Shown here: in pieces, positions 5,160 to 15,264 of the stretch
How positions within the stretch are numbered: the first letter of the stretch is position 1
How the letters are laid out: every line of letters starts with the position of its first letter
Origin: an uncultured Kiloniellaceae bacterium
Lineage (GTDB): Bacteria > Pseudomonadota > Alphaproteobacteria > Kiloniellales > Kiloniellaceae
Direction: 5' to 3'
Length of the DNA: 64,000 bases
NCBI GenBank assembly: GCA_947493695.1
Contig: CANLSF010000004.1
Span: 248,001-312,000, forward strand
Position numbers and translations under genes: made by a program
The notes under the pieces: generated by a model
The model's database searches: none
The model's input: only the letters and a program-made list of their open reading frames with translations
What the model was told of the DNA's origin: nothing

Positions 5160-6224
5160 ATGGAAGCTGCAAAATCGCTTACGCCGAAAGAACTTTCCGA
5201 GTTTCTTCGACGCGTCGCACCGGTTCGGCCGGTCTTTGTCTGGGGACCGCCCGGCGTCGGAAAATCGGCCCTGGTCGAAGACTTCGCCCGCTCCGTGGGT
5301 ATGGAGTGTTTATCACTCCGTGGTTCTCAACTGGCGCAAGAAGACATTCTTGGCGTGCCGCGGGTCGAAGCCGGTGTTCTTCGCTTCTCGCCGCCGGCTC
5401 AACTGGCCCGTAAGGAGCCCTATTGCCTCTATCTGGACGAGTTGAATGCCTGTTCGCCAGATGTTCAACGTGCGTTCTATTCCCTGATAGACAACCGCGG
5501 TATTGGTGAGTTCAGGTTACCAAAAGGCTCGGTTGTCATAGCGGCCGGTTATCGGGGCGGGGCGGATTCAATCACGAGGCCTTTAGCGTCCGATCTGATC
5601 AACCGGATGGCACATGTGCGACTGCGGGCCAATGCAAAGAGTTGGCTTGATTGGGCGGATAATGCCGGAATTCACCCACTCGTGACCGAATACATCCGAC
5701 TACGCTCGGATCATCTTTGGTCGACGCCCTCGCTTAATGAAGAGCCTTTTTCCAGTCCGCGCGCCTGGCACATTCTTTCCGATGCGCTTAAGTCCTGCGG
5801 TAACGAAGGTCTGAGCGAGGGTTTTGTGGAGACACTCGCCTCTGGTCTCATCAATCCGCCTCATGCCCGGCAATTTTCGGCCTTTAACCGGCAGCAGCTT
5901 CGTTCGCACGACCTCAAGGCCATATTTCAGGGCGAGACCGGGTGGCCGGACGCACCTGAAGAGCGCGATATCCTTTTCTTTCTGGTCGAATCCTTCCGTG
6001 CACAGCTGATTAGCGAGCTTCCCGTGAATGGCGACAATCTGGCGCAGGAAACTCGAGCTTTCACACGATCCGCCAAGAATCTCTTCGTGCAGCTTTCGGG
6101 CATTTCCCTTGAACTGGCGCAGTTGGTTGTCGCAAGAGGTGAAGATGGCGGGATTCTGCCGGACTGGTTTTTGGTCGAGCTGGCACGCGATCTGCCGAGG
6201 CTTGTGGCTTCGCGGAGAATTTGA
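5160..6224 (+). CDS. MoxR-type AAA+ ATPase
   Basis: A 354-residue cytoplasmic AAA+ ATPase of the MoxR/dynein-related type. Walker A is GPPGVGKS (about residues 29-36) and Walker B is CLYLDELNA (about 91-99); downstream segments such as DLINRMAHV fit the arginine-finger region. MoxR ATPases are thought to act as chaperones that remodel or activate partner proteins, typically VWA-domain proteins encoded next to them. The start ATG is preceded by TTAGGGG (spacing about 9). The partner gene follows after 3 nt, so the two form a bicistronic unit. The C-terminal 150 residues are helical and not assigned. Confidence 0.88.
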   Translation: MEAAKSLTPKELSEFLRRVAPVRPVFVWGPPGVGKSALVEDFARSVGMECLSLRGSQLAQEDILGVPRVEAGVLRFSPPAQLARKEPYCLYLDELNACSPDVQRAFYSLIDNRGIGEFRLPKGSVVIAAGYRGGADSITRPLASDLINRMAHVRLRANAKSWLDWADNAGIHPLVTEYIRLRSDHLWSTPSLNEEPFSSPRAWHILSDALKSCGNEGLSEGFVETLASGLINPPHARQFSAFNRQQLRSHDLKAIFQGETGWPDAPEERDILFFLVESFRAQLISELPVNGDNLAQETRAFTRSAKNLFVQLSGISLELAQLVVARGEDGGILPDWFLVELARDLPRLVASRRI

Positions 6225-6227
6225 AGC

Positions 6228-7538
6228 GTGACGCTTGTTGGAAAACTCGGGAAAAACCAGACCGCAATCCAGGAGGGTTATCAGCAGGCAGCCCGGTATC
6301 CTTTGATAGCGTCTCTGCCTGAGGTCGAGATTTCCTTCAGGGGGGTCGCATTTCACTTGCCGGCAAAAAGCTGGATTTCGATCTGTGCCGAACCGGCTTT
6401 ACAGAGCAAGCCAACAGCGGGTTCAAAAAAGGAACGAGAACCACTTGTCACCCTTTGGCCCAACCTGCGGCGCCGGGCGTCCGCGGAGGACTGGACTTAT
6501 ATCTTTGCACGTGTTCGGCTGCACATCGCCTTGAACCACCTCGACCCTCAGCGCAGGGATCTCAGTTGGCATATGGCAAGCTGGTGCCGTGCCGAGCAGA
6601 TGCTCGCGACCCTCGGTATCGGATCCCGGCCCGTGGAGTTTGGCCCCCTGCCGGAAGACCTGCCGCGGGGTGACGATGTCGCACTGGCGGCTTTCCTCGA
6701 CGAACAACCAATGCGACCGGAAATCGCGTGCCTTAGTCTGGCTGGAAGCGGACAGCGGTTCTGGCACTTTGGGGAACACTTTGAACTTTCCGGGAGACTT
6801 CGGGAGCAGCGGTCGGCCGCTCTGGCCCTGGGCATTCGCACCGCTGCCGCGCGGGCTCTCAAAAATCCCTGCGGTTCGGGCATGTCTTCAGATACCGGCA
6901 ACAAGTCCCACACAGTCGTGAGGTGCGCCCGCGACTGGATTCTCTCCGAGTATCCTCTGTTGGCAGCCTTGGCATCCTCTTTCGCCCTGGTCGAAGATGA
7001 AGCACAGTGTTCAAGGCTGTCGGTCACCGTTGCGGCCATCTGCGACGTGACTCAGGAAATCTATGTCAATCCCCGCGCGGCCCTGACGGAGGAAGAAGCG
7101 CGTTTTGTCCTGGCACACGAGTTCCTGCATGCCGGATTGCGTCATAGTGTGAGGCAGGGGGAGCGCGACCCCTGGTTATGGAACGTCGCCTGCGATTTCG
7201 TCATTAACGGCTGGTTACTTGAGATGAAACTGGGACATCCCCCTGAGGGTATTGGATTTCTGCATGATCCCGGTCTGAGGGATTCTTCCGCCGAAGAGAT
7301 ATACGAGCAGATCGTTTCAAACCTGGGATTGCTGCAGAAACTAAGTGGTGGCAGTACACTGAATGGAGAGAACTGCGATATTCTCAAAGGCGAAGAATGC
7401 CTGGGCACGTCGCGGGGAGGCGGGGTCGATCTGGATAGCTTTTATCGCCGGGCGTTGTTCGATGGCATAAGCCGACATCGCGATTCCAGCCGGGATCCTT
7501 TGCCGTTCGGGTTTATCAAGGCGATAGGAGCTCTATAG
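6228..7538 (+). CDS. DUF2201-type putative metallopeptidase with duplicated domain, no VWA
   Basis: A 436-residue protein starting at GTG, with GGAG 10 nt upstream. The C-terminal half contains HEFLHAGLRH (residues 297-306), the zinc motif HExxHxxxxH of the putative metallopeptidase domain normally found at the N terminus of DUF2201 'VWA-like' proteins. An earlier segment (about 83-160) aligns with the same domain: ARVRLHIALNH at 94-104 matches AHEFLHAGLRH, and LATLGIGSRP matches LEMKLGHPPE. It has lost the first His and the catalytic Glu. In related proteins a VWA region follows the peptidase, but here the frame ends shortly after it (LPFGFIKAIGAL). The upstream ATPase is the expected partner. 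Family identity is fairly sure, activity unknown. Confidence 0.78.
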   Translation: MTLVGKLGKNQTAIQEGYQQAARYPLIASLPEVEISFRGVAFHLPAKSWISICAEPALQSKPTAGSKKEREPLVTLWPNLRRRASAEDWTYIFARVRLHIALNHLDPQRRDLSWHMASWCRAEQMLATLGIGSRPVEFGPLPEDLPRGDDVALAAFLDEQPMRPEIACLSLAGSGQRFWHFGEHFELSGRLREQRSAALALGIRTAAARALKNPCGSGMSSDTGNKSHTVVRCARDWILSEYPLLAALASSFALVEDEAQCSRLSVTVAAICDVTQEIYVNPRAALTEEEARFVLAHEFLHAGLRHSVRQGERDPWLWNVACDFVINGWLLEMKLGHPPEGIGFLHDPGLRDSSAEEIYEQIVSNLGLLQKLSGGSTLNGENCDILKGEECLGTSRGGGVDLDSFYRRALFDGISRHRDSSRDPLPFGFIKAIGAL

Positions 7539-7574
7539 ACTTTGCCTCGCAGACGCGATCGAGCATCCTCGCGT

Positions 7575-8267
7575 TCAACTCAGGGCAAAATCCATCGCCG
7601 CACGGGCATGGAGTGCCGTTGTGTCGAAGGCCGGAATCTCGAAGTCATCTGCGGAAACCAGAAGACCCACTTCGGTACAGCCGAAGATGACGCTGTCAGC
7701 GCCGGATTTCTGCCCCCGGTCAACGACTTCCAGATAACCTGCTTTTGAGGTTGGCGAGATCACGCCCTGACAGAGTTCGTCATAAATTACGTCATGAACG
7801 AGTGTCCGGCCCGCGTCATCGGGTATGCGGGCGGTGATGCCGTGGCGTTCGTTCAGGCGGCCTTTATAGAAATCCTGTTCCATGGTGTAGCGTGTGGCCA
7901 GGAGGAGAGGGTGCTGGACCTGCGCCTTCTTCAGCGCAAGAGCCGTGGTATCGGCGATATGAATCAAGGGGATGTGGACCGCACTTTGCACCTCTTCCGC
8001 CATTTTATGCATGGTGTTGGTGCAGATCAGGACACAGTCGGCGCCGCCTTTTTCGATGTTCCGGGCCGCCTCCGTCATCTTCTCGGTGGCCTGCTCCCAA
8101 TCACCGGCGGCCTGTAAGGTCTCGATCTCGCCGAAATCGAAGGACCATATGAGAATTTGCGCTGAGTGCAGTCCGCCAAGAGCTTCGCGGGCCATGCGGT
8201 TAAGCAGCTGATAGTAGATCACGGTGCTTTCCCAGCTCATACCGCCGATCAGACCAATGGTTTTCAT
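7575..8267 (-). CDS. Aspartate/glutamate racemase family protein
   Basis: A 230-residue PLP-independent amino acid racemase of the YgeA/aspartate racemase type. The two catalytic cysteines are visible: C82 in CTNTMHK and C197 in GCTEVGLL. The N terminus (MKTIGLIGGMSWEST) is the family signature. Such cytoplasmic enzymes interconvert L- and D-amino acids (Asp, or broader substrates). The gene ends only 36 nt from the end of the convergent metallopeptidase gene and lies 38 nt downstream of mazG, with which it is probably cotranscribed. Substrate specificity cannot be told from the sequence. Confidence 0.93.
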   Translation of the reverse strand: MKTIGLIGGMSWESTVIYYQLLNRMAREALGGLHSAQILIWSFDFGEIETLQAAGDWEQATEKMTEAARNIEKGGADCVLICTNTMHKMAEEVQSAVHIPLIHIADTTALALKKAQVQHPLLLATRYTMEQDFYKGRLNERHGITARIPDDAGRTLVHDVIYDELCQGVISPTSKAGYLEVVDRGQKSGADSVIFGCTEVGLLVSADDFEIPAFDTTALHARAAMDFALS

Positions 8268-13980: not shown

Positions 13981-15264
13981 ATGACGATCAAAAACGCCGC
14001 ACGTGCGGCGACGGTATCCGCTTGTCTTTTTGGCGGCTGCCTGACCATCGGCGGGCTCCTGTTAACCGCTCAGCCGGCGAAGGCTGCACCCTTTACCTTT
14101 GGATTCGATATTCTTGTTGCTGATCAAGGTCTTGACGGGGTTTACCGCAGCCGGGATCTCAATGGTGACGGCGATGCTAATGACAGCGGTGAAACCAGCG
14201 TTTTCTTTAATGGCGATAACACCAGCGGGCTCGAAAACCCCAGCAGCAACATCTTTACAATTCTGCAGTCCCGCAGCGGTGAGCTTTATGTCGGCGACGG
14301 CACCAGTGACAGCGTTTACCGCCTGTCCGACAAGAATCGCGATGGCGATGCGCAGGACAACGGAGAGGCGCAGGTCTGGTTTTCCGAAGATAATGCGGCC
14401 GGATTGACCCTCCCTACTCCGAACGGCATCGGCGAAGACAGCGAAAACAACGTCTACATCGTCAATGCGGGAACAGGATCCAGCCCTTCAGACGGTATAT
14501 ACCGCACCCGCGATCTCAACGGCGACAGTGACGCAAATGACGTCGGCGAAGCGAGCCTCTGGCTTGATCTGGGGAGATTGAACCCTTCGGCTTCCGCTTT
14601 CGAGATTACCTTTCAGGGGAATGTCGCCTTTGTTGCTGATACCGTTGGAACCGACACCAATGTGATCTATCGGGCAGAAGACAGTGACGGCAACGGCTCG
14701 ATCAGCGACGACGAGGTTTCGGTGTTCATCGATGGCAATAACCCTTACGGCGTAACCATCGACTTTGCCTTGTCAGGTGACGACACGAGCCTCTTCATGT
14801 GGGAGTTTCTGGACTTTGATGGACCTCAATCTCTTTTCAAGCTGACCGACCTAGACGGCAGCGAGATGATTGATGACGTTCTTGAGGTGGTTGATGTCTG
14901 GGATACCAGCCTCTTGCCCAGTGAATTCGTCACCGGTGCTGGGTTTGGTGTGGCAGTCGGTCCTGACGGAAGCATTCTGCTGACCTCCAACGGCCGGAAT
15001 CCTAATGAGGATAATGTTTATCTTTTACAGGACCTTAACGGCGACGGTGATTATCGCGATGAAGGCGAGACTGCGGTCTGGCTGTCGCGATCGGTAAGCG
15101 GTGATGTTCCCGACCGGCCACGGGCAGTGGCTTTTGCCCCGCGAAACCTGGTCGTGGCCGTTCCAGAGCCGGGCTCCCTGCCCTTGCTGGCAATCGGGTT
15201 TATTTCGATGGCCGGTCTGGCGGGCTTTTCAAAACAGCGTTCGCGCGTAAGACGCTCTGACTAA
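13981..15264 (+). CDS. Exported PEP-CTERM protein with Asp/Asn-rich repeats
   Basis: A 427-residue secreted protein. It has a long signal peptide ending near AQPAKAA (about residue 36). At the C terminus VPEPGSLPLLAIGFISMAGL is followed by a basic tail (KQRSRVRRSD), the PEP-CTERM sorting signal recognised by exosortase/archaeosortase-type transpeptidases. Between them lie at least five copies of a DLNGDGDANDSGE-like motif (near residues 59, 119, 178, 234, 350), often preceded by VYR or IYR. These resemble calcium-binding Asp/Asn loops and may mark the blades of a beta-propeller. No exosortase gene is in the window. A GGAG ribosome binding site precedes the ATG, and a hairpin follows the stop. 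Confidence 0.85.
   Translation: MTIKNAARAATVSACLFGGCLTIGGLLLTAQPAKAAPFTFGFDILVADQGLDGVYRSRDLNGDGDANDSGETSVFFNGDNTSGLENPSSNIFTILQSRSGELYVGDGTSDSVYRLSDKNRDGDAQDNGEAQVWFSEDNAAGLTLPTPNGIGEDSENNVYIVNAGTGSSPSDGIYRTRDLNGDSDANDVGEASLWLDLGRLNPSASAFEITFQGNVAFVADTVGTDTNVIYRAEDSDGNGSISDDEVSVFIDGNNPYGVTIDFALSGDDTSLFMWEFLDFDGPQSLFKLTDLDGSEMIDDVLEVVDVWDTSLLPSEFVTGAGFGVAVGPDGSILLTSNGRNPNEDNVYLLQDLNGDGDYRDEGETAVWLSRSVSGDVPDRPRAVAFAPRNLVVAVPEPGSLPLLAIGFISMAGLAGFSKQRSRVRRSD

Follow-up and report, generated by a model that had tools for sequence, protein, structure and literature searches.

A tandem peptidase protein lacking the VWA domain, and matching changes in its AAA+ ATPase partner, in three species of one genus

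How might an AAA+ ATPase of the MoxR/dynein type work with a peptidase partner that has no VWA domain? The question is raised by a gene pair in a 64,000-nucleotide stretch (hereafter the window) of the 6.46 Mb genome of an uncultured Kiloniellaceae bacterium, the closest named relatives of which are alphaproteobacteria. The working of MoxR-type ATPases with VWA partners is itself poorly understood (PMC13036017). Here, we demonstrate that the peptidase domain of this system is duplicated, that the VWA is absent in three species, that the ATPase carries matching changes and that purifying selection on the pair has continued. We propose from these data how the remaining parts may act together.

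The gene pair and its two peptidase copies

The ATPase gene and the 436-residue peptidase gene lie on the same strand (Table 1), flanked by a radical SAM gene and by a convergent Asp/Glu racemase gene. The peptidase start codon is 3 nt downstream of the ATPase stop codon, so that the peptidase gene adjoins an AAA ATPase gene as in DUF2201-type systems. A first-pass annotation of this DNA had listed the peptidase reading frame, an intact HEFLHAGLRH motif, a degenerate ARVRLHIALNH motif and a gap of 36 nt to a convergent gene, all of which are present as described, the convergent neighbour being the racemase. By sequence, the solved structures closest to the ATPase are midasin first and AFG2/Cdc48-type ATPases next. 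In the peptidase protein, PF13203 (DUF2201_N) matches residues 234-362 at 62.9 bits (curated cut-off 23.2); no VWA family of Pfam matches it at E 1 or better, and NCBIfam gives zero matches. Elsewhere in the window (13981-15264), a predicted protein ends in a C-terminal VPEPGS... tail (by eye), which we take to be PEP-CTERM-like.

Table 1. Features of the gene pair and its convergent neighbour, in window coordinates
Feature	Position	Strand	Basis
AAA+ ATPase (MoxR/dynein-like), 354 aa, partner gene	5160..6224	+	ORF; PF07728 AAA_5, 40.7 bits (cut-off 22)
Walker A GPPGVGKS, aa 29-36	5244..5267	+	G29, P31, G32, G34, K35, S36 invariant in 15 rows of alignment A2
Walker B LDEL, aa 92-95	5433..5444	+	L92, D93, E94, L95 invariant in 15 rows of alignment A2
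Sensor-1 position and post-sensor-1 loop, aa 131-141, Tyr for Asn, YRGGADSITRP	5550..5582	+	Alignment
Candidate arginine finger R149, kept	5604..5606	+	Invariant in 15 rows
Tandem zincin protein, 436 aa, GTG start	6228..7538	+	ORF
N-terminal pseudo-peptidase copy, about aa 1-212	6228..6863	+	hhalign against C copy; secondary structure of model
Degenerate motif ARVRLHIALNH, aa 94-104, first His and Glu lost	6507..6539	+	Sequence, alignment
C-terminal peptidase copy, about aa 230-420	6915..7487	+	
Active-site motif HEFLHAGLRH, aa 297-306	7116..7145	+	H297, E298, H301, H306 in 15/15 members
D323 of WNVACD, candidate further zinc ligand	7194..7196	+	Kept in 15/15 members; ligand role putative
Protein end LPFGFIKAIGAL and stop, where relatives continue into linker and VWA	7500..7538	+	Alignment A1; tblastn
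Asp/Glu racemase gene, convergent neighbour, outside the system	7575..8267	-	PF01177, 131 bits

The two halves of the peptidase protein derive from a duplication. Comparison of residues 1-225 with residues 226-436 in a 14-row alignment (hhalign) gave a probability of 99.1% (E 7e-19, score 122.6); the top score among 100 column-shuffled N halves was 21.0, and a control comparison of the N half with the VWA scored 13.8 (probability 0.2%). The proof rests on the relatives, because the window-genus sequences alone fail to show the duplication: the three of them give a probability of 1.0%, and the window-genus N half set against the C half of the relatives gives 21.6%. The AlphaFold2 model of the window protein (mean pLDDT 78.3, pTM 0.51) has the same order of elements in both halves, namely helices, two strands, the HExxH helix, a helix and a helix. 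Together with the hhalign probability, this order is in keeping with the common fold that the two segments had been suspected to share.

The catalytic Glu of the N-terminal copy is absent in all 15 aligned members, which makes this copy an ancestral pseudo-peptidase. The C-terminal copy has both the HExxH motif and the candidate ligand D323, as expected for a putative gluzincin-type peptidase. The sequences thus support the initial reading, in which a protein that lacks a VWA and is encoded beside an AAA ATPase combines a pseudo-peptidase with a peptidase that appears to be active. Such tandems are not peculiar to the window genome; the members of the family are scattered over several phyla, and the arrangement goes back to their ancestor. 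In six of the 15 N-terminal copies (L007, L010, L018, L019, L020 and L103) the Glu is replaced by Cys and three His are kept (HCLLH...H); metal binding may thus persist at this dead site, or the site may work as a redox switch.

Absence of the VWA domain and distribution of the family

Fourteen relatives (L004-L011, L016, L018, L019, L020, L021 and L103, of which L007 is cut by a contig end and L011 lacks its 5' end) continue beyond the point where the window protein ends, first with a linker and then with a VWA bearing the DTSGSM motif. The proteins of the window, of another uncultured Kiloniellaceae bacterium (L002) and of Denitrobaculum tricleocarpae (L003) all end at the equivalent of LLPAGLVEEIRAL in alignment A1. 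Of the 14 members of this alignment, 10 match PF09967 (the DUF2201 VWA) and 11 have a VWA by alignment, one being cut by a contig end. Pfam and the alignment confirm that the C-terminal VWA, already noted as missing from the window protein, is indeed absent; apart from the three congeners, the intact family members in this analysis all retain it. In the model of the L004 protein (mean pLDDT 72.7, pTM 0.41), the end point of the window protein corresponds to a helix, followed by one more helix, a low-confidence stretch and the VWA. No remnant of the domain was found when the VWA parts of four relatives were searched by tblastn against the window, L002, L003 and the corresponding locus of a fourth genus member (L126; best E 0.19). 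As a control, the same queries recover at least eight loci with a VWA, among them the ones from which they were taken, all at E 1e-37 or better.

The missing VWA is not an artefact of sequencing or assembly: three assemblies of three congeners end identically, which points to an old shared loss. In the ATPase tree, the three VWA-less rows form one clade (support 100/100), nested with L004 and L005 (99/97) and with L006 (100/98), and the stem of this clade (0.48) is the longest among the inner branches listed. The VWA-less state, as judged from these sequences, is derived and common to the three congeners, and the simplest reading is one single, old loss. The three genomes count as one evolutionary event, and we know of no independent VWA-less lineage.

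The family is rare. At E 1e-20, four of 385 genomes in a sample of the class match (the window's own, a congener, the VWA-bearing L103 and a broken remnant, G305), and one of 398 in a sample of the phylum, again the window's own. The tandem-peptidase copies of G305 (L106) and of a Streptomyces plasmid (L108) are broken, with the match split across frames. The fourth genus member (G001) lacks the gene pair; between its radical SAM and racemase genes (L126:7253-7947) lies a different ORF, 7362-7886 on the minus strand, and the site is therefore variable. One of the VWA-bearing loci, L016 (MT835968.1, unverified, "Bacteriophage sp."), carries ORFs resembling transketolase halves, glycerol kinase and several phosphoesterases (by eye; one phosphoesterase is confirmed by Pfam), and may thus be a bacterial contig.

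Hints of a family role in RNA damage or translation stress come from the neighbourhoods. At least five of the 14 relatives with a VWA have the pair next to RNA-repair-linked genes: RtcR and RtcB in L004:576-3829, RtcB and a band-7 protein in the close mutual relatives L008:668-2957 and L009:49-2759, a band-7 (band-7/slipin) protein in L011:2387-3532, and a PNKP-type kinase-phosphatase-ligase in L006:60-2618. The single RtcB match in the window genome lies on a different contig.

The ATPase partner and selection on the pair

The Walker A and Walker B motifs of MoxR-clade AAA+ proteins are present in the 15 rows compared, as is R149, by its position a candidate arginine finger. At sensor 1, all 13 VWA-bearing rows read GNR, the Asn of which aligns with the TNR Asn of VCP-like ATPases, whereas the three VWA-less rows (window, L002 and L003) read GYR; Tyr131 thus stands where a polar residue (Asn, Ser, Thr or Asp) is expected. 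The 13 VWA-bearing rows share 100 invariant ATPase positions when one gap is allowed, and eight of these are changed in each of the three VWA-less rows. This number is ordinary (1 to 9 in control lineages), and it is the clustering at the post-sensor-1 loop that stands out: N131, D135 and A137, three of the four invariant positions of 131-141, are all among the eight (hypergeometric P 0.0013, a post hoc value, since the loop was picked for testing after the sensor-1 change had been seen).

Divergence along the protein gives a similar picture. Stretch 130-140 ranks first among the 11-residue ATPase stretches in the VWA-less clade; in ten control lineages stretch 131-141 ranks 11 to 325 of 344, and the nearest control is the VWA-bearing L021, with its top divergence at 134-144. 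Loop identity is 0.27 against an overall identity of 0.80 for the window and L002, 0.36 against 0.82 for the window and L003, and 0.73 against 0.94 for L002 and L003. Across 78 VWA-bearing pairs, it spans 0.45-1.00 (median 0.73) and lies at most 0.10 below the overall identity of the pair.

In NorQ, a MoxR ATPase of solved structure, the C-terminus of the VWA partner binds the post-sensor-1 loop, the shape of which is set by the sensor-1 Asn; NorD without its last two residues no longer co-purifies, and point mutations in the NorQ loop lower ATPase activity merely somewhat (PMC13036017). ATPase function depends critically on sensor 1, a position mostly occupied by Asn and otherwise by Ser, Thr or Asp (PMC5039278). 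The loop decay fits a loss of VWA docking, because that loop in NorQ holds the VWA C-terminus. Taken with this literature, the sensor-1 Tyr and the decayed loop suggest that VWA docking has been lost and that the window ATPase probably hydrolyses ATP weakly. The first-pass annotation had supposed that such a pair may work differently from known MoxR/VWA pairs; the matching changes in the ATPase lend support to this idea, and the mode of working proposed below is our own conjecture.

Could the VWA be supplied in trans, by a protein from another gene of the genome? The genome does contain 14 VWA_2 matches, 9 of them above the cut-off. However, PF09967 matches neither the window protein nor anything in the whole genome at E 0.001, and the ATPase loop expected to dock it is no longer conserved, and we regard a partner in trans as very unlikely. 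The ring might instead have remained a full ATP-driven motor that tolerates the sensor-1 Tyr, with the pseudo-copy or the altered loop docking the peptidase protein to it. The conserved Walker motifs and R149 would agree with such a motor, as would the example of McrBC, named as a VWA-free partner contacting post-sensor-1 loops (PMC13036017). We nevertheless think a full motor improbable, given the narrow range of residues and the critical role reported for sensor 1 (PMC5039278); moreover, the loop varies among the three VWA-less species to the extent given above (0.27, 0.36, 0.73), which resembles lost constraint rather than a new dock.

Between L002 and L003, the peptidase has a dN/dS of 0.134 and the ATPase one of 0.116, against 0.089 in the racemase and 0.144 in MazG; within the peptidase it is 0.142 for residues 1-82, 0.116 for residues 83-230, 0.059 for the active domain and 0.37 for the tail. 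The values for the pair speak for continued purifying selection on both genes. They also bear on the possibility that the truncated gene and the altered ATPase are a functionless relic on its way out. A relic would account for the long stem in the ATPase tree (compatible also with a phase of relaxed selection), for the genome without a copy among the four of the genus, for the broken copies in G305 and Streptomyces (L108) and for the fast-evolving C-terminal tail. Yet both frames are open, in the same order, in all three species despite a dS of 1.5 between the ATPases of the window and L002, the active-site residues are kept, and the dN/dS of the peptidase (with its active domain at 0.059) lies between those of its neighbours, the racemase and MazG; we therefore consider decay unlikely.

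We thus favour the following scenario. The ancestor would have been a three-part machine, in which an AAA+ ring acted with one protein composed of a pseudo-peptidase, a zinc peptidase and a VWA. The common ancestor of the three species would then have shed the linker and the VWA, with a clean break where the peptidase domain ends. Two changes in the ATPase fall on that branch of its tree: Tyr replaced the sensor-1 Asn, and conservation of the post-sensor-1 loop was lost. With both Walker motifs and the candidate finger R149 intact, the ring presumably still assembles and binds ATP, and it may hydrolyse it slowly or not at all. With ATP bound, it could then scaffold the zinc peptidase or gate it, and the pseudo-copy could offer a surface for docking or for presenting substrate. 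We give roughly even chances to this proposal of a zinc peptidase gated or scaffolded by an AAA ring that has been freed from its VWA and probably hydrolyses ATP poorly. It is tempting to speculate further that the ring is a nucleotide-sensing platform, which binds and hardly hydrolyses ATP and, without the VWA arm, switches the zinc peptidase with the pseudo-copy as docking surface. This more specific version is doubtful; if true, it would describe an AAA/peptidase system in which assembly gated by nucleotide takes the place of ATP-driven remodelling.

Comparison with known systems

In the available parts of the literature on DUF2201, MoxR/vWA/metallopeptidase systems, RtcB and RNA repair, we found neither the tandem nor the VWA-less form described, and in those on pseudopeptidases no link between a pseudopeptidase and MoxR; in the literature searched, the tandem peptidase family with a dead copy is apparently undescribed. 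The phage family phrog_1314 (PHROG), which matches residues 235-590 of L004 (peptidase and VWA), carries the name HNH endonuclease and looks by its domain content like a metallopeptidase-VWA protein. The phage records concerned are H4, H9, H15, H17 and H19, and several RefSeq phage records are also named HNH endonuclease.

MoxR-vWA systems in general are treated in PMC7159879, and the combination of MoxR with a vWA protein bearing an N-terminal metallopeptidase domain is known from group 2.2 jumbo phages (PMC7824862). The phage system (PF13203 and PF09967) resembles the window pair in that an AAA gene adjoins that of a DUF2201_N protein; the window protein differs by its additional N-terminal pseudo-copy and by the absence of the VWA. 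Minigluzincins (selecase, abylysin and jannalysin) and Wss1/Spartan-type peptidases are also among the closest known systems, and Wss1 with Cdc48 offers a working parallel for an AAA ATPase acting with a minigluzincin-like peptidase (PMC4559962). Carboxypeptidase D has tandem active and inactive domains (PMC11266112), so that there too an inactive peptidase domain is retained beside active ones in one chain; however, it belongs to family M14 and to another setting, and the principle alone is common to both.

The most instructive comparison is with NorQ/NorD of Paracoccus, where an AAA ATPase likewise stands beside its partner gene (PMC13036017, PMC9976466). As in NorD, the VWA of the VWA-bearing relatives is C-terminal, and nine of the ten complete members of alignment A1 have a hydrophobic stretch (e.g. 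VFRL) within about seven residues of the end (by eye). The window pair, in contrast, lacks the VWA and therefore the finger, has lost the sensor-1 Asn and the conservation of the loop, and does not fit a NorQD-type motor, in which a VWA docks on the ring. In a lineage that lost the VWA and, on the same branch, the conservation of the presumed docking loop, nature has in effect carried out the deletion experiment. Its outcome suggests that a contact between VWA and loop as in NorQD extends to a distant branch, and it points to candidate residues.
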